Shown: positions 3,136 through 13,659 of the stretch, piece by piece
Layout: every line of letters starts with the position of its first letter
Position numbering within the stretch: position 1 is the stretch's first letter
DNA from: Candidatus Binatia bacterium
GTDB lineage: Bacteria > Desulfobacterota > Binatia > HRBIN30
Length of the DNA stretch: 64,000 nt
Direction: 5' to 3'
Assembly: GCA_937925685.1 (NCBI GenBank)
Contig: CALAMI010000002.1
Location: 1 to 64,000, forward strand
Notes under the pieces: generated by a model
What the model was told of the DNA's origin: nothing
What the model saw: only the letters and a program-made list of their open reading frames with translations
The model's database searches: none
Translations under genes and position numbers: made by a program

Positions 3136-4140
3136 TTAGCTCCAGAATTCCGGTTTGGCTTCTCGGCGCAGCAAGTCGTTCAGCACCTGCAGTGCAGGCT
3201 TGTTTTCGTGCAGTAACAACCGCACCTGCTCGGCAATTGGCATTTCGACGCCAGCTTTGCGTGCCAGTTCCGATACACTGATGCTATTGCGCACACCTTC
3301 GGCAACCTCGTGCATGCTGCCGAGGATCTCCTTCAAGGGCTCGCCGCGGCCGAGGCGAAGGCCCAGTGTTCGGTTCCGGCTCAAGTCGCCGGTGCAGGTG
3401 AGAACCAAATCGCCGACGCCGGAAAGACCCGAAACCGTTTGGGCCTTGCCGCCAAGGCGAACGACCAATCGAGAAATCTCCGCCACCCCACGAGTGATCA
3501 GAGCAGCTCGGCTGCTGTGTCCAAGGCCGAGTCCGTCGCTCACTCCCGCGGCTATGGCAATCACGTTTTTGCTGGCACCACCAATTTCGACGCCAATCAC
3601 GTCGTCGTGCGTATACACCCGGAAGCTCTTGCCTTGGAAAGTGGTTTGGGTCGCTTTCGCTGCGTGGGGATTCGTACTGGCAACGGTGACCGCAGTGGGT
3701 TTCCCTGCGGCCACTTCCTTGGCGAAACTTGGGCCTGACAGCACCGCAATGCGGCTGGCGTATTCTGGTCCGAGCACCTGCTCGATCACTTGCGACATGC
3801 GCAGGAGCGACCTTTCTTCCACCCCTTTAGCCGCGCTCACGATCCACGCGGTCTCGCGCACCCAGGAGCGCGCGGTTTTTACGACCTCGCGAACCACATG
3901 AGAGGGAACGGCAACAACGAGCATTTCTGCCGCAGAGGCGGCCTCTTCGAGGTCGGCAGTGGGCGCGATCGTCGCCGGCAGCGGGATTTTAGGTAGGTAA
4001 AGCGCGTTTTCCCTGCGCGTGCGAAGCTCCTCTGCAAGGTCCTCGCGGTGACACCACAAGCGCACGCCATGGCCGTTTTCACTTAATAACTTGGCCAATG
4101 CTGTCCCGAAGCTTCCGGCACCGAGAACGCTTACCTGCAT
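3136..4140 (-). CDS. gpsA: NAD(P)-dependent glycerol-3-phosphate dehydrogenase
   Basis: 334-residue cytoplasmic enzyme that reduces dihydroxyacetone phosphate to sn-glycerol-3-phosphate, the backbone for phospholipid synthesis. The N-terminus has the dinucleotide-binding GAGSFGTALA; the centre has SGPSFAKEV and the catalytic-lysine segment EIGGASKNV; the C-terminal substrate domain contains GLSGVGDLVLTC and SRNR. The frame is open far upstream, but the ATG at 4140 gives the canonical MQVSVLGAGSFG start and normal family length. It lies 55 bp after a dockerin-like protein gene and is coupled to the zinc-finger microprotein downstream. Confidence 0.96.
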   Translation of the reverse strand: MQVSVLGAGSFGTALAKLLSENGHGVRLWCHREDLAEELRTRRENALYLPKIPLPATIAPTADLEEAASAAEMLVVAVPSHVVREVVKTARSWVRETAWIVSAAKGVEERSLLRMSQVIEQVLGPEYASRIAVLSGPSFAKEVAAGKPTAVTVASTNPHAAKATQTTFQGKSFRVYTHDDVIGVEIGGASKNVIAIAAGVSDGLGLGHSSRAALITRGVAEISRLVVRLGGKAQTVSGLSGVGDLVLTCTGDLSRNRTLGLRLGRGEPLKEILGSMHEVAEGVRNSISVSELARKAGVEMPIAEQVRLLLHENKPALQVLNDLLRREAKPEFWS

Positions 4141-4195
4141 GGTCGCAGGCTCAGCGCTTGACACAAAGGCCGGGGTACCGCAAGGCAAGGCTCCC

Positions 4196-6043
4196 TCAGG
4201 GTACGCGGACGATGATCTTTGCAGGGCGACCGTAGTTGCCGTTACGATCGCGCCAGCGAGCGATGAGCGTGGTACTTCCCGAAGGGAAACGCAATTCTGT
4301 GCCGATGACACCTTCGCTGCACACTTGCGTTGTCGAGTCCGAAGCCACGTAAGCAGGGCGCTCGCGATCGTCGAGCGTGCACGGATCGACGGTGTTGTTG
4401 GCAAGCCGACAGGCGAAGTCGTTGAGTGCGTCGGTGACTGCTTGCGAGGGATCGTCGAGATTGAGCGACGGGAAGCCGGGAACACCGCCAATCGGAAATG
4501 GCGGCGGCCCTTTGTCGCACACCTCGGCGCTACCGTTGCCCAGAGGGCGCGAGGACAAGATTTGCACGTCGGGGCGCGAGCTGGGGTCCGACGGGTTGTA
4601 AAAATTGCGAGTGTCTGGCGCGCTGTTGCTCGTACCCGGTTTGGCTTCGATGACGAGAAAGAAGCCGGCGCCAAAGGAGCGCTCGAAAACGGGTACACCG
4701 TTTTCGTCCGTACCGGAAGGTGGGATCACGTGATTGTCCGCGGTTGTAATCCCGAAGTACGTGATGACGGGTCCTGCCAGGGGCGGCAACGTGGGGGTTG
4801 GCGTGCGGGTAACCGTTGGAGTGCGGGTGGGCGTGCCGGTCTGGGTGATTGTAGGAGTGTTCGTGGGCGTACGGGTTTGGGTTGGAGTGCGGGTCACGGT
4901 GCGCGTGGCGGTTTCGGTCGGCGTAAAGGAAGCCGTGCCCGTAGCAGTGGGAGTTCGTGTGCTCGTGCGCGTGCGTGTGGGTGTCGTTGTGGCGGTGATC
5001 GTAGCCGTTGGTGTAGGGCTCGCCGTGGGTGAAGGTGTTCGGGTAAGCGAGGGCGTGCGGGTGAACGTTGCGCTCGGGGTGGCCGTGGTGGAGGCAGTGG
5101 CTGTCGTCGTGGGTGTAGACGTTCGGGTACGTGACGGTGAGGCCGTCCGCGAAGGTGTCACCGAAGGAGTTTGCGTTGCTGTTTGTGTGGGCGAGCGAGT
5201 GGTCGTGGGGGTGCGAGTCGGCGATAAAGCTGTCGTGAACGTTGCCGTGGGTACGGCGGTGCTTGACGGTGTGGAAGTGGGAGAGCGCGTTGCGCTCAGC
5301 GTTGGGCTCGGCGTCCGTGAGATCGTACTCGTGGTGCTGGGAGTCGCTGTGGCCGAGGCGCTAAGCACTGTGGTGTGCGTGGCTGTGGCCGAGGGCGAAA
5401 CACTGGGAGTGCTCGACGGGCTCGCGGATGGTGTCGGGCTTTCTGCTCGGGGGGTGAACGTACTCGAGGGCGTAGGGAGGGCCGTTCTGGGCGACGAGGT
5501 TGGGCTTAGCGTGGGAGTTGGCGCGGTTGTGTCTTGGGGGGAAGTTGTGGGGCTCTGCGTCGCGGTTGCGGTGGGCGATAGGGTGGGCGAGAACGCTACC
5601 GTCGGTCGGGGGCTCTCGGTTGCCGTTGCGCTTGGTGTCGATGTCGCTGACAGCAAGGGGGTAGCCGTAGCGGTCACACGCGGAGGAGGCGTCGACCCAA
5701 GAAGGGACAACAGGGCTACGACGTCAGCGCTACTTACGCTGCCGTCAGCGTTAGCGTCGACGCCGATGCACGAGGAAAAGCCAGCGAACAGCTCGTCAAG
5801 GAAAGCGGCTACATCGTCAAAATCGATGTGGCCATCGCAATTGGCGTCTCCGGGCAAAATCGAACTGCCGTCGCTGCCACTGGCCCAATGCATTTGCGCG
5901 CTCGCGGGGAGGAGCACAGGGGTAAGCAGCTTTACCTGAGCTGGAGACGCCGTGGGCGAAAATACGAGGAAACCGAGTGCCACCCAAAGAACTTTTGCCA
6001 CACTCCCCAAAGCCGCTGCCATGCGTGGGCAGCTTCCATACAC
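4196..6043 (-). CDS. secreted dockerin-like EF-hand protein with a 300-residue Thr/Pro linker
   Basis: 615-residue exported protein of unknown function. After a signal peptide (hydrophobic core around residues 17-35) there are two dockerin-type calcium loops, [13 protein letters not shown] (about 65-77) and [13 protein letters not shown] (about 94-106). Residues about 117-422 are almost only Thr, Pro, Ser, Ala and Arg in TPT/TRT runs, a likely extended and perhaps O-glycosylated spacer. The C-terminal domain of about 190 residues (from [11 protein letters not shown]) is beta-rich with four cysteines and is not recognised. A GTG start at 6043 has AGGA five bases upstream; the ATG at 6022 is an alternative. 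The next gene upstream has the same architecture. Confidence 0.8.
4778..5695 (-). repeat. low-complexity Thr/Pro-coding tract
   Basis: About 0.9 kb inside the dockerin-like gene encodes degenerate TPT, TRT and SAT runs. The plus strand reads as GTGGGNGT-type repeats and gives a long artificial Val/Gly-rich open frame. The units are degenerate and not exact tandem copies. Confidence 0.85.
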
Positions 6044-6085
6044 CGTTTTCCTGCGGTGCGCTACCGACGAACTTTAGCGCTATGG

Positions 6086-7570
6086 CTAACGGCCACAGAA
6101 CTGGAACTCGGTGACCAAGTCGGCTCCTTGGAAGGCATGAAGTATTGGAGCTGCCAGCACGAAGCAACCCGGCCCATTGGAGTTCCGCCAATCTTGGCAG
6201 GAAAAGTTCTCACCTTTGACGGTGTGCACGAGTTGATGCCCGCACACCCCGCGACCGGGTCCATCGACATGGTCGCAGTCGCTGTCTCGCGTGCATGCAG
6301 CGTTGTCGCTGCACACGCCGAATTCGTTGCTCACGTTTTGCACGATGGCGCGTGCCGTGCCGGTGGTAAATGCAAAGGACTGACTAAAGCCGCTCGATAT
6401 CGGCTCATCTCCGCAAGGCAAGGATTGTTCGAACGAGAGTTCCACCGGCAAACCGTTTAATCCTAGCACCGGTGCTAGCACAGCCGAGCCAGGGCCACTG
6501 TCTTCGCCGATGGAACTGACCGTCAAGGGGCCGTTGCAAACGCCCGGGTGGAAGGCGCGGTTGCCGCATTGCCCGTCCCCGGAACCAGTTGCGGTGTCGC
6601 AGTCGGCATCGTTGCGACAGGGCAAGCCATTGCGCCCTTGCGTGCAGGTGGGCTCAGGGCTGCAACGTCCCTCGGTGTCGGCACTACGGCAATCGTCGTC
6701 GGTAGAACAGGCCTCACCCAGTCGTCCGGAAGTACAGTACCGCCCTAGGCCGCATCGGCCGTCGCCGGCGTTGGAGGCAGTGTCGCAGTCGCTGTCTGCC
6801 CGACAAACTTCGCCAACGGCACCGGCTCCACAAATCTGAGTGAAACCTTCGATCTGGCCGCATACGGGTCCACTGCAAGTGGAGAGGCAGTCGACCAAGG
6901 TAAACCCGTTTAGCCCAAGTTGGCCGACGTGGTGGTTAGTTTGCAGGACAATGCTGTAGTCTTGGCCGCCGCTGCACTGAACGACTCCGGCGCTGCTCAC
7001 CGGGATCAGGGGGCGAATGCAGACGAGCAGGTTGGCGACTTGTGCTTGGACGAAGAAATAGTCAGAGCCATCGACAACATCGATGGTGGCAACGCCGTTG
7101 GAGTCGGGCTCACCAGCACGAAGCACCAGGTACGCGTCCTGCGTGACCCCATTTTTTTGTCCCCGGAATGATCCTAACGGGAGGCGGAATCCAGAGTTCA
7201 ACACTGCACTAAACTGACTGCGCTGACTAAAGGTGAAGCGGCGGTCTCCGAGCGTGCCGCCCGTAGGGCCGCTGGTTGGGGTCGGCGTGGAGGCTGGCGT
7301 AGGGGTTGGCGTACCCGTGGTAGGGCAGGAAGCGAGCAGATAGTTGACCGCAGCGACAATTTCGTCGACGGTAATCACCCTGTCCCCGTCGCGGTCCCCC
7401 ACTGTGCACGACTCGATATTTTGGTTTCCGAGAGCAATGTTCACCATGGTGACAACTTCGTCCACGGTGACTTCGCCATCGCCATTGCAGTCGCCGACGC
7501 ATTGTGCCAGCGACGCTGCAGACCCTCCCACCACCCAAGCGGTGATGGCGACGAAGAACCAAAGTTGCAT
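6086..7570 (-). CDS. secreted dockerin-like EF-hand protein with Cys-rich repeats
   Basis: 494-residue exported protein. The signal peptide MQLWFFVAITAWVVGGSA is followed by two calcium-binding loops, GDCNGDGEVTVDE (about 25-37) and GDRDGDRVITVDE (about 58-70), spaced as in a dockerin. A short TPTPTPASTPTPTS linker leads to a beta-rich region and then Cys-rich repeats of the form GxxCxxDxDCxxxxxxGDGxCG (about residues 245-365). The ATG at 7570 is preferred over the GTG at 7585 because GAGGGG lies nine bases before it. No cohesin gene is seen in the window, so cellulosome assembly is unlikely. It is followed 42 bp later by the related Thr/Pro-linker protein; both probably act at or outside the cell surface. 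Confidence 0.8.
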   Translation of the reverse strand: MQLWFFVAITAWVVGGSAASLAQCVGDCNGDGEVTVDEVVTMVNIALGNQNIESCTVGDRDGDRVITVDEIVAAVNYLLASCPTTGTPTPTPASTPTPTSGPTGGTLGDRRFTFSQRSQFSAVLNSGFRLPLGSFRGQKNGVTQDAYLVLRAGEPDSNGVATIDVVDGSDYFFVQAQVANLLVCIRPLIPVSSAGVVQCSGGQDYSIVLQTNHHVGQLGLNGFTLVDCLSTCSGPVCGQIEGFTQICGAGAVGEVCRADSDCDTASNAGDGRCGLGRYCTSGRLGEACSTDDDCRSADTEGRCSPEPTCTQGRNGLPCRNDADCDTATGSGDGQCGNRAFHPGVCNGPLTVSSIGEDSGPGSAVLAPVLGLNGLPVELSFEQSLPCGDEPISSGFSQSFAFTTGTARAIVQNVSNEFGVCSDNAACTRDSDCDHVDGPGRGVCGHQLVHTVKGENFSCQDWRNSNGPGCFVLAAPILHAFQGADLVTEFQFCGR

Positions 7571-7692
7571 GATGGTACCCCTCACGCTGTCGAGAATACG
7601 AGGCTGCTACACGCTTGCGCGGACTAGCGCAACCACCCGAGCCCCGAGTGGCCTCAAAAATAGCGTAAAGTGCCGGAACCGCGGCGCGTGGC

Positions 7693-8445
7693 TTACCAGT
7701 GCATGCGCGAGCGTAGCAGCCGGGTTTGTGCGCGACTGAGTTCGAGCTCGGAGCCCTTTTGGTCCTTCATAACGAGTTTGTACCGGCCAGCAAACCAGGG
7801 CACGATAGCCTTCACATAGCGGAGGTTGACCAGCCGCGATTTGTGCGCTCGAAAGAAGATGTTGGGGTCGAGCTTCTCCTCGAGTTCGCGGAGGGTGAAA
7901 TTGGTCATGAATCGGTCGCCGTCGATGTAAGCGAAGACGATGCGGTCCTCCACCTCGAACCAGAGGATTTGGTCAGTAGACAGTACGAGGATACTCCGGC
8001 CACGTTGTACAGGGATTTGCTGCAAGTAACGCCGCTCTCGGGCTTCGAATGCACGGAGGACTTCTTCGATTGCCGGTGGCACGGTTCGGTTCGCTAAACG
8101 ATCGCGTACGCGGCGCATGGTTTCGGTCAGTCGTTCGCGCGAAATGGGCTTGAGCAAGTAGTCGACAGCGCAAACCTCGAAGGCCCGGATCGCATATTGG
8201 TCGTAGGCCGTGGCAAAGACGATTTGCGGCCGGTGACGGATGGCTTTGAGTACGCCGAAGCCATCCACCCCTGGCATCTGGACATCGAGGAAGACCACGT
8301 CGGGCTTCAGGGTATCGATGGCTTGGATTGCCTGGGGGCCATTTCTAGCCGTTCCTACGACTTCGACCTCCGCAAAATCCCGGAGAAACGTTTGCAACCG
8401 CTCGCGCGCGAGTTTCTCGTCGTCGACAATGAGCGCTCGGATCAT
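7693..8445 (-). CDS. LytTR-family response regulator
   Basis: 250-residue cytoplasmic transcription factor. An N-terminal receiver domain carries the phospho-acceptor Asp in VVFLDVQMPGVDG (near residue 54) and a conserved Lys in YLLKPISRERL. The C-terminal LytTR DNA-binding domain (about 145-245) contains FFRAHKSRLVNLRYV, typical of the AlgR/LytR type. Its start overlaps the stop of the sensor kinase gene as ATGA, so the two are translated together. Targets are unknown; LytTR operators are normally direct repeats, and I did not find a convincing pair. Confidence 0.93.
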   Translation of the reverse strand: MIRALIVDDEKLARERLQTFLRDFAEVEVVGTARNGPQAIQAIDTLKPDVVFLDVQMPGVDGFGVLKAIRHRPQIVFATAYDQYAIRAFEVCAVDYLLKPISRERLTETMRRVRDRLANRTVPPAIEEVLRAFEARERRYLQQIPVQRGRSILVLSTDQILWFEVEDRIVFAYIDGDRFMTNFTLRELEEKLDPNIFFRAHKSRLVNLRYVKAIVPWFAGRYKLVMKDQKGSELELSRAQTRLLRSRMHW

Positions 8446-9710
8446 TGTGATGTTACCCGGTTCACCGTGAGTGGAAAGCGCAGTCGCACGACGGTCCCTT
8501 GGCCTGGAGCCGACTCGACCTGAGGACGATATGTCTCGCCGTATAGGCGCACCAGCCGGTCCCGAACGCTGCGCAGCCCCAACCCCTGCTCGTACAGTCG
8601 AGTGCCATCGCTGAAGCCAACGCCGCTGTCCTCAACCTCGACGAGCAGCTCTTTGCTTTCCACATGTGCTCGCACGGTGAGAGTGCCTCCATCAATTTTC
8701 TTGGAAATGCCGTGTTTCACGGCGTTCTCCACCAAAGGTTGCAGGATTAAGCTTGGCACCAAGCGATGCCTCGCCGCAGGGTCCACGTCCCATTCCACCC
8801 CAAGTTCATCCCCAAACCGTGCCTTCTCGATTTCTAAGTAAGCGTGGGCAAAACGCAATTCTTCTTCGAGCGGAACGAATTCCGTTCCCGAGCGCGACAG
8901 CAGGTAGCGAAACACCTCGGCCAAACGTTCCACGCAACGCTCGGCCTGGTCCGGATCGCTGCGAATGAGTTGCGCAATGGAATTTAAGCTGTTGAAGAAA
9001 AAATGCGGATGGATTTGTGCCCTCAAGGCTGCGAGCTGTGCCGATGTAGCTACGTTCTCCAAGGCCCGGGCCTTAGCCTGCATGACCAGAATGCGCCACC
9101 AGTGCAGGTTAAATCCCACCACGCAAAGGATGGCCGTGGGCACGATTGGGATGAGGAAGTAAATGACGGGAGCGTGGCGCAGCGCACTGGCGGGAATGGT
9201 AATCGTGCGGTCCGGCCCGTGATATGGGTTTAAAATGGAGTGGCCGCCAAAGAGAAAGGAATTGGCCTCTACGGTGAGAAACGAAAGCGCTGCGATGGCG
9301 AAGGACGAGGTGAACACTTGGGCCACAAGCCGGATGGGGAAGGTAAGGTGGGCAAAACGTGGCAGAACCCAAATCCAGAGTGCGAGGATGACGGTACACG
9401 ACAACAAAGTGGCGCCGAGGAAAAAGAAAAAGGCTCGGGGCGAGCCCCATAGATAGAGGTGCACGAGGGCCAGGTGCAGGCCGATGGCAAGTCCAGCAAG
9501 GTAAAGAAAGCCAATTTGCAGTAACGGTGAGGCCGCCGACGAAATGGGATGGACCGCCATGGTATCGACCACGGCAGCTGTATCGATGAGCGAGCCTGGG
9601 GCATGCGGGGTTTCGCTGCGGTCACCGGTTTGCTGGCGGGTCGTTTCGAAGAGGGAATCTTCGCTTTGGACCGCTCGTTGTTCCCGTACGCCCTGAAGTG
9701 AAGTTGACAT
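8442..9710 (-). CDS. LytS/YehU-type sensor histidine kinase
   Basis: 422-residue membrane kinase. Several hydrophobic segments between about residues 65 and 225 form the sensor region, with no recognised extracellular domain. The His_kinase domain has the phospho-acceptor in IHPHFFFNSLNSI, followed by the HATPase_c N box LVENAVKHGISKK and G boxes DSGVGFSDG and GQGTVVRLRF. This is the cognate of the LytTR regulator, whose gene it overlaps by four bases. The ATG at 9710 is preferred because longer versions run into the divergent gene at 9741. The signal sensed is unknown. Confidence 0.9.
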   Translation of the reverse strand: MSTSLQGVREQRAVQSEDSLFETTRQQTGDRSETPHAPGSLIDTAAVVDTMAVHPISSAASPLLQIGFLYLAGLAIGLHLALVHLYLWGSPRAFFFFLGATLLSCTVILALWIWVLPRFAHLTFPIRLVAQVFTSSFAIAALSFLTVEANSFLFGGHSILNPYHGPDRTITIPASALRHAPVIYFLIPIVPTAILCVVGFNLHWWRILVMQAKARALENVATSAQLAALRAQIHPHFFFNSLNSIAQLIRSDPDQAERCVERLAEVFRYLLSRSGTEFVPLEEELRFAHAYLEIEKARFGDELGVEWDVDPAARHRLVPSLILQPLVENAVKHGISKKIDGGTLTVRAHVESKELLVEVEDSGVGFSDGTRLYEQGLGLRSVRDRLVRLYGETYRPQVESAPGQGTVVRLRFPLTVNRVTSQ

Positions 9711-9731
9711 AACCGAGGCCGCACGGATACT
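9704..9731 (+). promoter_or_regulatory. candidate sigma-70 promoter for a near-leaderless mRNA
   Basis: TTGACA at 9704-9709 and GATACT at 9726-9731 are separated by 16 bp. The predicted transcription start would fall within a few bases of the ATG at 9741, and no ribosome binding site is visible there. The -35 box overlaps the start codon of the divergent kinase gene. Confidence 0.35.
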
Positions 9732-9740
9732 AGTTGACCC

Positions 9741-10109
9741 ATGAACGCAAAGAAAGTAGGTTGGCTGGCTCTTGTGTCTGGACTGCTGGTGGCTGCCCCG
9801 GTATCGATGGGGGTTGCTCAGGAGGACGTAAAACTCCAGGGCGAGGTTGTCGACCTTGCCTGCTATGTGGCGAAGGGTGCGAAGGGTGCCGCGCACAAAA
9901 GCTGCGCGCAAATGTGCGCGAAAAAGGGCGTTCCGTTGGGGCTGCTGACCGACTCGGGCGAACTCTACTTACTGGTCGACGATCATAACAACGAAGCCCC
10001 GTACAACGAGGCGAGAAAGCTTGCGGGCGAAAGGGCCGAAGTCACCGGTAAGAAGTACATTCGTAACAATCTGCCCAGCATTGTTGTTGGTGGGGTGAAA
10101 GGCCTTTGA
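9741..10109 (+). CDS. small exported Cys/His protein
   Basis: 122-residue protein with a Sec signal peptide (hydrophobic residues 7-26, cleavage near VAQ). The mature part has Cys41, His52, Cys55 and Cys59 (C-X10-H-X2-C-X3-C), which could bind a metal ion or form disulfides. The region VDLACYVAKG, then SCAQMCAKKGVPLGLL, is followed by a small OB-like segment (GERAEVTGKKY). I recognise similar uncharacterised periplasmic proteins but no named family. It is divergent from the LytS/LytTR pair and just upstream of a lipoprotein with unusual CX4CH motifs, so a shared redox or metal role is possible but unproven. Confidence 0.72.
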   Translation: MNAKKVGWLALVSGLLVAAPVSMGVAQEDVKLQGEVVDLACYVAKGAKGAAHKSCAQMCAKKGVPLGLLTDSGELYLLVDDHNNEAPYNEARKLAGERAEVTGKKYIRNNLPSIVVGGVKGL

Positions 10110-10140: not shown

Positions 10141-10986
10141 GTGGCTAGTTTAAGCGAGCGTTGGCTCAGGCACGCCATCGTGGTGTGCGTTGTGAGCACG
10201 GTGGCGAGTTGCGCCGGTGACGGGCCCCCGCCGGCGGCTTTGGGTGGCGAAACATTTGCGGCGTTGCAAACGGAAGTGTTTGCTCGCCACTGTGCACTTG
10301 GCCCCTGCCACTCGGCGGCCGTTGCGGCCGGTGGCTTAGTCTTGGAGGGGCCAGACGTGTACGACGAGTTAGTGGACGTTGCTCCGCAAAACGCCGCTGC
10401 CCGGCTGGCTGGATGGTTGCGGGTTACGCCGTTCTCCCCGGAGCGCAGCTTTTTATGGGTAAAACTTACTGGTCCGGCTCCGGGGCAAGGCAGCCGGATG
10501 CCTTTGGGTGCTCCACCATTGGACCAGGATGCGCTGGCGCGCATCGAACGTTGGATCCTCTTGGGTGCTCCGCGAGGCGAGGATCCGGTAGTTGTTCCCT
10601 CACCGAGCCCTTCCCCTACGGCCACAGTGACTGCGGAGGTCACGCCCTCGCAAAGCTCTTTTAGGCGTCTGCAAGAAGAGTTGTTCCGCCCTCGATGCGC
10701 CGTCGCGTTTTGCCACGACAGTACCACCCGCGCGAGCGGGCTCGATTTGACCACTCCTTACCCGGCACTCGTGGGGGTGCTTCCGACAAATACTGAAGCC
10801 CGCGAGGCTGGCTGGCTCCGGGTGACTCCGGGTCGGCCCGAGGCCAGTTTCCTCTTAACAAAGGTAAAGTTGACGAGTTTTGACCCCCGTTGGGGGAGCC
10901 CGATGCCATTATCGGGTCCACGACTGGACACTCCATGGTTAGAAGCACTGACGGCTTGGATCGAACGTGGAGCTCCCAATGACTAG
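10141..10986 (+). CDS. lipoprotein with two tandem CX4CH cytochrome-like modules
   Basis: 281 residues, GTG start. The signal peptide ends in a lipobox (VASC). Two homologous halves (about 38-145 and 175-281) each have F, then CAxxxCH (CALGPCH and CAVAFCH), GLxL, GWLRVTP, SFL, MPL, a Leu-Asp pair, WI and GAP. This order matches the planctomycete-type cytochrome c domain, including a methionine in MPL that could be the distal heme ligand, except that the heme motif is CX4CH instead of CXXCH. The halves are joined by a PSPSPSPTATVT linker. Either heme attachment through CX4CH (known in tetraheme cytochrome c3) or disulfides is possible. It lies 31 bp after the small Cys/His protein. Confidence 0.78.
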   Translation: MASLSERWLRHAIVVCVVSTVASCAGDGPPPAALGGETFAALQTEVFARHCALGPCHSAAVAAGGLVLEGPDVYDELVDVAPQNAAARLAGWLRVTPFSPERSFLWVKLTGPAPGQGSRMPLGAPPLDQDALARIERWILLGAPRGEDPVVVPSPSPSPTATVTAEVTPSQSSFRRLQEELFRPRCAVAFCHDSTTRASGLDLTTPYPALVGVLPTNTEAREAGWLRVTPGRPEASFLLTKVKLTSFDPRWGSPMPLSGPRLDTPWLEALTAWIERGAPND

Positions 10987-11006: not shown

Positions 11007-13190
11007 TCACGAAGGGACGCAGAACTTGACGACGGCGCTGCCCATCGGAGTTCTAATCTCGAGCACACTCGGGTAGGAGCAGGTAAACGGCATCCTTACA
11101 AAAAGGCTTGTGGGCGTTGCTGCTGCCACGGTGGCAGGTATTCCGTTTACCTGAACGCAGAGGAGGTCGTCGCAAGGCCAGTATGTTCGTCCACAAACAG
11201 CAGACCAAGCTTGCGGAAAGAACCCCGAGCCAAAGATGCGTATCAGATCCCCCGCGGCAGCGATCAGGGGTCGCACTGCGTTGATGCGTGGCGGTTGAGC
11301 CCGAGAAACGGGAAAAGCTGGCAGCAACGAGGCAGGGCTCACAGTGCCAACAATGTCCGCCCCTATGACCCGACTCTCGCAGCCAGGCTCGACGTTGCAG
11401 TGTTCCCAATAGTTTCCGCGGGCGAACAGCGGCTGACTGGCTGCGTACACGAGGTTGCGGCGCGGCTGATTCCCACCGTTCCACGCGAACAGGTTTCCGC
11501 CTGTTGCTCCGAACGGCCCGCCCCCAAAATCGACGCGCGTCTCTGCCTCAGCCACGAAGCCAGCAGCGCTGTTACACACGAAGGCGTTATCCTCGGCCCG
11601 TAGTACTGGGGCCTCCCCTGCGCTGGTGGATTGCAGCCGGCCTCCGTCACGGGTGTTGTGGACGAAAACGTTAGCGCGGAGGTAAGCCGCAGAGTGAGCG
11701 CGAACCAGGATGCCTGCTCCGGCGTTGTGGCGGACGAGGTTGCCTTCGGCAACGAGCAGCGCAGGATCGTCCGGGGCAGAAGGGTGAGCGCCGTTGACAG
11801 CGAGGCCATTCTGGGCGGACGCCCCTTCGTTGCGTTCAATGAGGCTGTCGCGCACCATCACCCGGCCCCCCAGTGTAGCTTGAACGCCACCATTTCCATT
11901 GTGGAGCACCCAACTGTGTTCCACGCGGGCGTAAGCCCCGGTGGTGACCTTGACGCCTTTGTCGTTGGCACCGCGGATGACGCAATTGCGTATGAGGTTT
12001 GCGCTGCCTGCAAAGTCGCCTCCCGCCTGGTTGTCGATTCCTACGGCATCGCCCGTGGCCGACCCCTCGATGAGGCAGTGTTCCACAAGGTTGCTGTAAG
12101 CGTTCGGTCCAGCGATGGAGACCACATCGCGGTCTGTTCCACCGACATTGCGTAATGTAAGTCCAAGCACGCGGTTGCGTGCGCTGCGAAGTGCGAGGGC
12201 AGGATAGGCACCCGCATTGGCATCGATGATGCGCAGAGTGGCGTTTCCGAGAGCGTCGTGACCGTCAATGGTAATATCGCCGCCGGTTAGCGCCGGTAGC
12301 GCAGAACGGAGGGAAATGGTGACGGACGCTCCTGGCGGGAAGATGACATCGTCGAAACGAACAAGCGCCGGCCCGGGCGCAAGGTTCGCTTGTTCCAGGG
12401 CATCGCGGAGAGACGTTCCAGACCCTCCGCGGTCTTCAGGTGTTGTGACCGTGAACACTGAAGGAAACAAGCGCCAGCGCACACGGTTCGCTTTTGGGCC
12501 GGCAACCACCAGCCCTTGGCGATGCTGAATTTGCCCCGTGGTGGGCTCGATGACTGTAAGGTGGTGAACCCAAACTCCAGGTGCCAGGCCCGCGAAGCGC
12601 ACGGAACCAGTGGCGGAGAGCTGGCCGGAGTAATGCGTTGCAAGCGGCATATCGGCTTGGCAACTGGGAGAGAGAAGTTCCCCATTTACCTGTGCGACCG
12701 CACCAATCAGCAGGTCACCGTTTTGGAAATCGATTTCCACAGTGGCCGCAGTGTCTGCAGGGCAGAGCAGCGGTGTCGGCGTAATCGTAGCTGTCGGAGT
12801 TTGTGTTGGTGTACGGGAAGGAGTTGGTGTGGGTGTGCGGGTGGGGGTGCCGGAAGGGGTCGGGGTGATCGACGGTGTCGGGGTGTTTGTGGGGGTGCTG
12901 GTTTGGGTGGGTGTACCCAGCCACGGAGTGGGAAACACCTCTGCCCCCAGGAGGTGCATGGCCACTACCACCCAGTCGGCCGCAGAGACGATACCGTCGC
13001 CATTCCAGTCGAAGCAGTTCGGTCGCTGCGGCGACTGGAATAGTGCGGCAAAGTCGAAAGTAACCCCGTTCGATGACTCCGGGCAGGGCTCACTGGCCCG
13101 ATGGTTCGTTGGGAACGCTGCCAAGGCGAATTCTGACAACAAGGCAAGGGTTAGCGTTGCGGTGATCACGGCAGCCCAAAATTGGACCAT
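11007..13190 (-). CDS. secreted beta-helix (pectate-lyase-like) protein with EF-hand and TIG domain
   Basis: 727-residue exported protein. After a signal peptide (residues 1-25), one calcium loop DWNGDGIVSAAD lies at 61-72, then a Thr/Pro linker (about 93-140). A short beta domain precedes a region starting with TTPEDRGGSGTSLRDAL, which introduces right-handed parallel beta-helix repeats (ITIDGHDALGNATLRI, NLVEHCLIEG, NLIRNCVIRG and ADKGVK-like turns). The C-terminus, from INAVRPLIAAAGDLIRIFG, resembles an IPT/TIG domain. The frame is open to 13349, but the ATG at 13190 gives the signal peptide. This adhesin- or lyase-like layout has no visible catalytic set, so a binding role is as likely as enzymatic activity. 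Confidence 0.82.
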   Translation of the reverse strand: MVQFWAAVITATLTLALLSEFALAAFPTNHRASEPCPESSNGVTFDFAALFQSPQRPNCFDWNGDGIVSAADWVVVAMHLLGAEVFPTPWLGTPTQTSTPTNTPTPSITPTPSGTPTRTPTPTPSRTPTQTPTATITPTPLLCPADTAATVEIDFQNGDLLIGAVAQVNGELLSPSCQADMPLATHYSGQLSATGSVRFAGLAPGVWVHHLTVIEPTTGQIQHRQGLVVAGPKANRVRWRLFPSVFTVTTPEDRGGSGTSLRDALEQANLAPGPALVRFDDVIFPPGASVTISLRSALPALTGGDITIDGHDALGNATLRIIDANAGAYPALALRSARNRVLGLTLRNVGGTDRDVVSIAGPNAYSNLVEHCLIEGSATGDAVGIDNQAGGDFAGSANLIRNCVIRGANDKGVKVTTGAYARVEHSWVLHNGNGGVQATLGGRVMVRDSLIERNEGASAQNGLAVNGAHPSAPDDPALLVAEGNLVRHNAGAGILVRAHSAAYLRANVFVHNTRDGGRLQSTSAGEAPVLRAEDNAFVCNSAAGFVAEAETRVDFGGGPFGATGGNLFAWNGGNQPRRNLVYAASQPLFARGNYWEHCNVEPGCESRVIGADIVGTVSPASLLPAFPVSRAQPPRINAVRPLIAAAGDLIRIFGSGFFPQAWSAVCGRTYWPCDDLLCVQVNGIPATVAAATPTSLFVRMPFTCSYPSVLEIRTPMGSAVVKFCVPS

Positions 13191-13659
13191 GTCGCAGTGG
13201 ACGCAAGCTAGGTTGAACTTCTCGGTTTTGGTTCCCCATGGTGCGAGATCGTGGTTCGGCCTCCATGAGGCTTCAGGACTCCGGGCGATGTGCACTTTTT
13301 GGTCATTTCTAAATGCTTTGGATGAGGCAGCGCGGCCGGGAAGGCCCAACGGGAATGCGGCCTACCGGATTTGTTTGCCTGCTCTGGTGTCGTTCAGTTC
13401 TCGCTCGTATGATCGCTTGGCCGGAAGGGACGTCTTCCTCCCAGAGGTGCGGGTGGCGTCTTGGGGGGTGGAGCTTGGTTTTTGCCGCTGGTAGCCCGTA
13501 GCTGGTTCGTTCCGTATACCGGTTTCACGATCGAACGTTTTCTTCTGTTGGTGCCCAGCAACGCGTGCCGGAATTTGCGGTGCTGCCCAACGGCGGCGGA
13601 CCTGCTGAGTAACGGTAGGTAAACGCGCGCTGGCGCGCTTGAGCGTTGCAACGATGGTA

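Follow-up and report, generated by a model that had tools for sequence, protein, structure and literature searches.

We propose that the gene at positions 10141 to 10986 of the window codes for a lipid-anchored diheme c-type cytochrome that belongs to an undescribed outer-membrane electron-transfer module; judging from sequence comparisons, we put the probability of this reading at about 0.65. The window is the whole 64,000-nucleotide stretch of DNA that was analysed; it opens a 292 kb contig in the 3.7 Mb genome of a Candidatus Binatia bacterium of the HRBIN30 lineage. HRBin30 is described as an order of the Binatota, with genomes from thermal springs (PMC8262859). Two observations are new here: the lipoprotein gene is paired with a small gene directly upstream, and the family to which the lipoprotein belongs is linked to a Cyc2-like cytochrome-porin. 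The lipoprotein is more interesting for these gene partners than for its motif alone, and the gene linkage yields a candidate that can be tested for a part in extracellular electron transfer in Binatota. Our literature search on Binatia and extracellular electron transfer brought up one paper, which dealt with petroleum-degrading communities.

The lipoprotein and its two repeats

The features discussed below are as follows.

7693..8445, minus strand: LytTR response regulator (PF00072 and PF04397), divergent, possible regulator
8442..9911, minus strand: LytS-type histidine kinase (PF06580 and HATPase_c), divergent, possible regulator
9741..10109, plus strand: small exported protein of 122 aa with an OB-fold model, 31 bases upstream of the lipoprotein reading frame
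10141..10986, plus strand: putative lipoprotein with two candidate CX4CH heme motifs, 281 aa read from GTG, from translation and relatives
10210..10212, plus strand: predicted lipobox Cys24 (codon TGC, preceded by VAS and followed by AGDGP), from sequence reading
10291..10311, plus strand: candidate heme motif 1, CALGPCH (Cys51, Cys56, His57), both Cys and the His invariant in 18 of 18 aligned rows
10498..10503, plus strand: Met120-Pro121, potential distal ligand of the heme, without variation in the 18 aligned rows
10579..10653, plus strand: Pro/Ser/Thr-rich linker from repeat 1 to repeat 2, from sequence
10696..10716, plus strand: candidate heme motif 2, CAVAFCH (Cys186, Cys191, His192), from sequence and family alignment
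10903..10908, plus strand: Met255-Pro256, candidate distal heme ligand, from family alignment

The hydrophobic N-terminus, which closes at the lipobox, is followed by two repeats of about 107 residues each. They are 48% identical to each other and are separated by the Pro/Ser/Thr-rich linker, whose length differs among relatives; the earlier note was thus right to call the protein duplicated. Each repeat contains a CX4CH motif, a later Met-Pro-Leu and a WI..GAP terminus. One cysteine of the protein lies in the signal segment and one in the lipobox, and the rest are those of the two CX4CH motifs.

That the product is a lipoprotein, as the same note had claimed, is predicted from the lipobox at Cys24, and a.CAG.GP segment with its cysteine at the expected lipobox position occurs in all 13 lipoproteins found at the level of the order. 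Eleven of these 13 have two CX4CH domains, while those of genomes G003 and G007 have one. A cruder pattern, applied to all the family frames, many of which are fragments, detects a lipobox in 23 of 125. The rule that the residue at position +2 of the lipobox governs outer-membrane sorting comes from E. coli; with an alanine at this position, the lipoprotein would probably reside at the outer membrane.

A family in which CX4CH is the rule

The stretched motif seen in both halves extends to the relatives: as far as sequences can tell, CX4CH is the rule of the family and not a chance motif, an explanation that is ruled out by the residues invariant in 18 aligned rows and by a census of 137 distinct domains. 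The census relied on an HMM that was built from the two repeats of the window protein and iterated on the retrieved loci at an E-value limit of 1e-3, including 80 additional regions that are a subset of the family matches listed. CX4CH is present in 134 of the 137 domains, CX5CH in three and CXXCH in none, with the proviso that diverged CXXCH relatives may be under-sampled, since the seed itself is CX4CH. An earlier round had given 129 CX4CH and one CX5CH among 130 distinct domains. Met-Pro, scored as any MP past residue 45 of the match, is found in 135 of the 137 domains (132 CX4CH and all three CX5CH); the two domains that lack it are short hits (model positions 7-48 and 1-30), both of them CX4CH. 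Exactly two cysteines are present in 123 census domains. In the 18 rows, which were chosen for diversity from 45 family domains, both cysteines, the histidine, Met-Pro, one leucine, one serine and one tryptophan are invariant, so that the possible methionine ligand that the earlier note had pointed out proves to be a property of the family.

Relatives occur in at least 41 of the 58 genomes searched, with up to at least 25 matches in one genome, and some members have a single domain (L009, L018, L021 and L022). Two of the CX5CH domains, CAVAAACH and CAQSTACH, lie beside the porin in loci L163 and L167. The window's own genome also encodes longer proteins that contain a CX4CH domain. One, on contig C15 (L059:5962-9039), is a 1025 aa protein that starts dockerin-like and also has a P460-like region (27.2 bits for a cut-off of 27) bearing CVGCH, the CX4CH domain and NHL repeats. 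In another, on contig C11 (L058:7999-9999, 666 aa), the CX4CH domain is N-terminal and precedes a long region for which no Pfam match was obtained at E up to 0.01.

Among the open-access papers listed by our searches, none describes a CX4CH-only cytochrome family in its title or at the start of its abstract. The usual way to look for c-type cytochromes is to count CXXCH, and a large family that has CX4CH as its only motif can be missed, its members being labelled hypothetical lipoproteins. CX3CH and CX4CH are also counted as heme motifs in PMC5566968 and PMC10734462.

Evidence for heme binding

By profile comparison, the nearest solved relative of the window protein is FoxE, the diheme cytochrome c of the foxEYZ operon of phototrophic Fe(II) oxidation (PDB 5mab). 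The match has an E-value of 5.8e-5 over the whole sequence, the best single stretch reaching an i-E of only 0.53. Both proteins consist of two repeats with RMPLG...WI.AGAP-like ends, and in the alignment the CXXCH of FoxE stands opposite CX4CH with a two-residue gap, the Met-Pro regions being in register. Unlike FoxE, which has CXXCH motifs and swapped methionines, the window protein has CX4CH, and Fe(II) oxidation is a feature of the operon of FoxE. The distal ligands of FoxE are described as methionines that are exchanged between the two halves (PMC10654088), and the window protein might do likewise. The existence of single-domain members of the family suggests that exchange of methionines inside one chain is not obligatory.

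The resemblance to other described families is partial. Over its C-terminal part, the SO2930 family of diheme cytochromes (TIGR03806) resembles the window protein (E 3e-7, 29.9 bits where 313.3 are required), and it matches 12 of the 18 domains with E no higher than 0.1. The LIC11213 family of lipoproteins (NF047812) gives a partial match (4e-5, 23.7 bits against 100), and 4 of the 18 domains match at the same limit. As for the planctomycete-type cytochrome pattern mentioned in the earlier note, the likeness is weak: PSCyt1 (PF07635, planctomycete cytochrome C) matches 10 of the 18 domains, again with E no higher than 0.1, and the window protein stays below the threshold (19.1 bits versus 22). 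No Pfam model scores above its cut-off for the window lipoprotein. A match to fatty acid cis/trans isomerase (E 0.065) was taken as noise or as a shared C-terminal motif. When the CX4CH domains were compared, by profile, with domain 2 of the canonical diheme cytochrome, the probability was 8.7% and the E-value 0.0038, with the CH and the Met-Pro in register.

Repeat 1 was modelled with AlphaFold2 at a mean pLDDT of 83. A Foldseek search of the PDB with this domain model returned nothing significant (best E 3.2; FoxE at E 9.1). In a second structural comparison, run against 10 chains, residues 670-797 of hydrazine synthase gave Z 5.8 (88 aligned residues, rmsd 3.1) and FoxE gave Z 5.5 (88 aligned, rmsd 3.2), Z values of 5-6 being within the background stated for the tool itself. 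The predicted structure is thus weakly consistent with a cytochrome fold.

Cytochrome c3 has CX4CH hemes, four hemes being packed in one small domain. The comparison with this protein drawn in the earlier note holds for the motif and not for the rest: the domains of the window protein keep Met-Pro and resemble FoxE, and kinship with cytochrome c3 was rejected, the window protein having one motif per repeat and two in all. CX4CH is also common to the window protein and the multiheme cytochrome MmcA, in which attachment of heme to CX4CH is reported to have been demonstrated by mass spectrometry (PMC11024163). MmcA has five CXXCH, one CX3CH and one CX4CH, whereas each small domain of the window protein has no motif other than CX4CH and keeps a conserved methionine.

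The machinery for heme attachment is present. Among the Ccm genes that the earlier note had proposed to look for, three Cytochrom_C_asm (CcmF/CcmC-like) matches and CcmE are found on one contig of the window's genome, all above cut-off. CcmE is found in 56 of 56 genomes, which establishes the capability and has no discriminating power. The lone match to ResB, of System II, was not counted because it is below its cut-off (21.3 bits for 24.6) and apparently corresponds to the CcmF frame, which has the same 676-aa length and strand.

From family-wide conservation of CX4CH and Met-Pro, kinship with FoxE and the proven attachment of heme to CX4CH in MmcA, we infer that the window protein very probably binds heme. 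If it does, CX4CH would be the norm in a small Met-ligand domain, which raises the question of how the Ccm proteins recognise the longer spacing.

The small gene upstream

A small exported Cys/His protein encoded just before the lipoprotein had already been noticed from the sequence, and this gene turns out to be a regular companion. Wherever the lipoprotein occurs in the order, in 13 genomes (the window's and 12 relatives), the small gene is directly upstream of it and on the same strand. In the remaining two of the 15 genomes of the order, G005 and G006, the CX4CH family is absent among the matches listed; the small protein is present in G006. All counts of the small gene were obtained by tblastn, because our simple gene-calling script missed small genes, including that at 9741 in the window.

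Four residues of the small protein (C41, H52, C55 and C59) are invariant in the four rows aligned. Neither Pfam nor NCBIfam has a family for it. Its model (pLDDT 80) is OB-fold-like: the best Foldseek matches are OB proteins at E about 7e-3, with YgiW and SilF among the matches listed (SilF weakly, at E 4.1e-2) and none among them at 1e-3 or better, and a second structural comparison gives Z about 7 to many OB domains. In three relatives associated with family f9 (L053 to L055), homologues of the small protein lie between hemC-like and hemD-like genes, names that rest on the reading of L053, and a single-domain CX4CH lipoprotein is found a few kb away.

Linkage to a cytochrome-porin and a diheme cytochrome

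In 25 of 56 genomes there is a gene for a cytochrome-porin of about 400 aa, which starts with EPY..R.G..C..CH and continues as a probable beta-barrel. Two loci, L172 and L173, were left out of the 25, being second pieces of the genes at L161 and L171. Counted on the best frame of each locus, both CXXCH and the EPY..R.G..C..CH start are present in 26 of 26 porin frames. The putative architecture, with one CXXCH near the N-terminus followed by a probable beta-barrel, resembles that of Cyc2. The motifs that are described for Cyc2, AXPXFAR[QK][TY] upstream and PXL downstream of CXXCH (PMC8406198), are each found in 0 of the 26 frames. Porin_O_P is above cut-off in a copy from Pseudomonadales (L065), no Pfam porin is above cut-off in three further frames scanned (L048, L050 and L146), and a PDB search with the porin returned nothing relevant.

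A domain of the CX4CH family lies within about 1.5 kb of the porin in 16 of the 25 genomes (14 CX4CH and two CX5CH), in families f2, f3, f4, f7, f11 and f13, and in 13 of the 25 the small gene is also present in the flank of the porin. In the other nine genomes (G000-G004, G025, G039, G045 and G052), one of which is the window's, no family domain is that near. The fourth component, a diheme cytochrome of the CXXCH type, has a hydrophobic N-terminus, and the one copy scanned gave Cytochrom_C above cut-off and a partial CcoP-like match; this cytochrome shares a stretch of a few kb with the other three genes in eight genomes (G009, G011, G012, G013, G014, G017, G030 and G037). The window's genome has all four genes, only the lipoprotein and small genes being adjacent. 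Its porin is on the same contig (C2:176304-177536), about 112 kb past the end of the window, in a 19 kb neighbourhood (L174) where neither a CX4CH domain nor a homologue of the small protein was found; its diheme cytochrome is on contig C11 (53% identity).

The linkage is also seen in a MAG labelled Pseudomonadales (JANQPF010000013.1, L065), where a CHRD-repeat lipoprotein with a terminal CX4CH (3405-5312) ends 3 bases before the porin-cytochrome (5316-6377). It is a single MAG and the pair may reflect misbinning.

Across genomes, the CX4CH family is present, among the matches listed, in 25 of 25 genomes that have the porin versus 15 of 31 that do not (Fisher p 9.7e-6), and the small gene in 24 of 25 versus 10 of 31 (p 9e-7). 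The co-occurrence of the CX4CH family and the small gene is not significant over the 56 genomes, among the matches listed (p 0.13); seven of these genomes have the small protein but, among the matches listed, not the family. These p-values take no account of phylogeny, and the CX4CH family extends beyond the module. The porin, the small protein and CcmE were searched in 56 genomes and the CX4CH family in 58, with thresholds of 1e-10, 1e-5, 1e-5 and 1e-3, respectively.

Proposed function and alternative explanations

In the mechanism that we favor, the protein would consist of two FoxE-like domains in which CX4CH serves as the heme-attachment motif, heme being attached by System I (Ccm) to both cysteines of each motif. 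The histidine would be the proximal ligand and the conserved methionine the distal one, the methionine coming from the same repeat or, by a swap like that of FoxE, from the other one. Electrons would pass, in one direction or the other, between the Cyc2-like fused monoheme cytochrome-porin and the membrane-anchored diheme cytochrome, and the small OB-fold Cys/His protein would assist, perhaps in metal or heme handling. By analogy, kinship with FoxE and the Cyc2-like architecture would suggest that the module oxidises a donor outside the cell, such as Fe(II). The most novel version of this proposal is tentative, and we give it somewhat less than an even chance: a new outer-membrane conduit of Binatota, present also in at least one Pseudomonadales MAG, which combines a member of a new family of fused monoheme cytochrome-porins, set apart from Cyc2 by its motifs, a FoxE-like lipoprotein cytochrome with CX4CH, an OB-fold Cys/His accessory protein and an anchored diheme cytochrome, and which is built on family-wide His-Met CX4CH hemes.

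The lipoprotein could also be a diheme cytochrome c that has no part in an outer-membrane conduit and works as a periplasmic shuttle or redox domain, its neighbourhood reflecting shared regulation or the supply of heme or metal. We regard this as unlikely. In its favor, the family is large, with up to at least 25 matches in a genome, it includes multi-domain members such as that with the P460-like region and the CVGCH, the porin is not adjacent in the window's genus, and in 15 of 56 genomes, among the matches listed, the family is present but the porin is not, so that many members must do something else. Against it, the porin linkage recurs in six families (f2, f3, f4, f7, f11 and f13) and in the Pseudomonadales MAG.

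The role of a diheme electron carrier, which the earlier note had suggested, is supported by conservation, by the homology with FoxE and by the gene neighbourhood. The other possibility that it raised, a redox-silent derivative in which CX4C forms a disulfide in a heme-free binding or structural module, is disfavored, and we consider it very improbable. Cysteine pairs of exported proteins often form disulfides, the spacing of the motif varies between four and five residues, and the structural match is weak (best Foldseek E 3.2), all of which would fit such a module. However, a disulfide alone needs neither the histidine nor Met-Pro, and the former follows the second cysteine in 137 of 137 domains (it is part of the classifying pattern, and none failed) while the latter is present in 135; moreover, several genomes have a CXXCH cytochrome in the neighbourhood, and the single copy that was scanned exceeds the Pfam cut-off. 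A lipoprotein that binds a metal such as copper by its Cys, His and Met residues, with the OB-fold protein as metal chaperone, would be consistent with this set of residues and with the weak match of the partner's model to SilF, but it conflicts with the homology with FoxE, and no metal-efflux gene was recognised by eye in two neighbourhoods (L048 and L050); we consider it very improbable too.

Neighbouring genes of the window

The divergent LytS/LytTR-type pair (7693-9911) may control the lipoprotein gene. The kinase reading frame as listed overlaps the gene at 9741, and the true start of the kinase is therefore probably lower. When genes were clustered over the 21 loci compared, the LytS-type kinase was found in 7 and the LytTR regulator in 4; cluster 0 of this comparison, merged via low-complexity linkers, was not used. 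Farther along, at 6086-7585 on the minus strand, a secreted protein with EF-hand/dockerin-like repeats is encoded (CNGDGEVTVDEVV), and proteins that resemble it are found at a similar place in some relatives, in a clustering blurred by low complexity. On the other side, convergent with the putative cytochrome gene, 11007-13349 (minus strand) codes for a beta-helix protein with a long TPTPTP linker, whose cluster is represented in 4 of the 21 loci compared.
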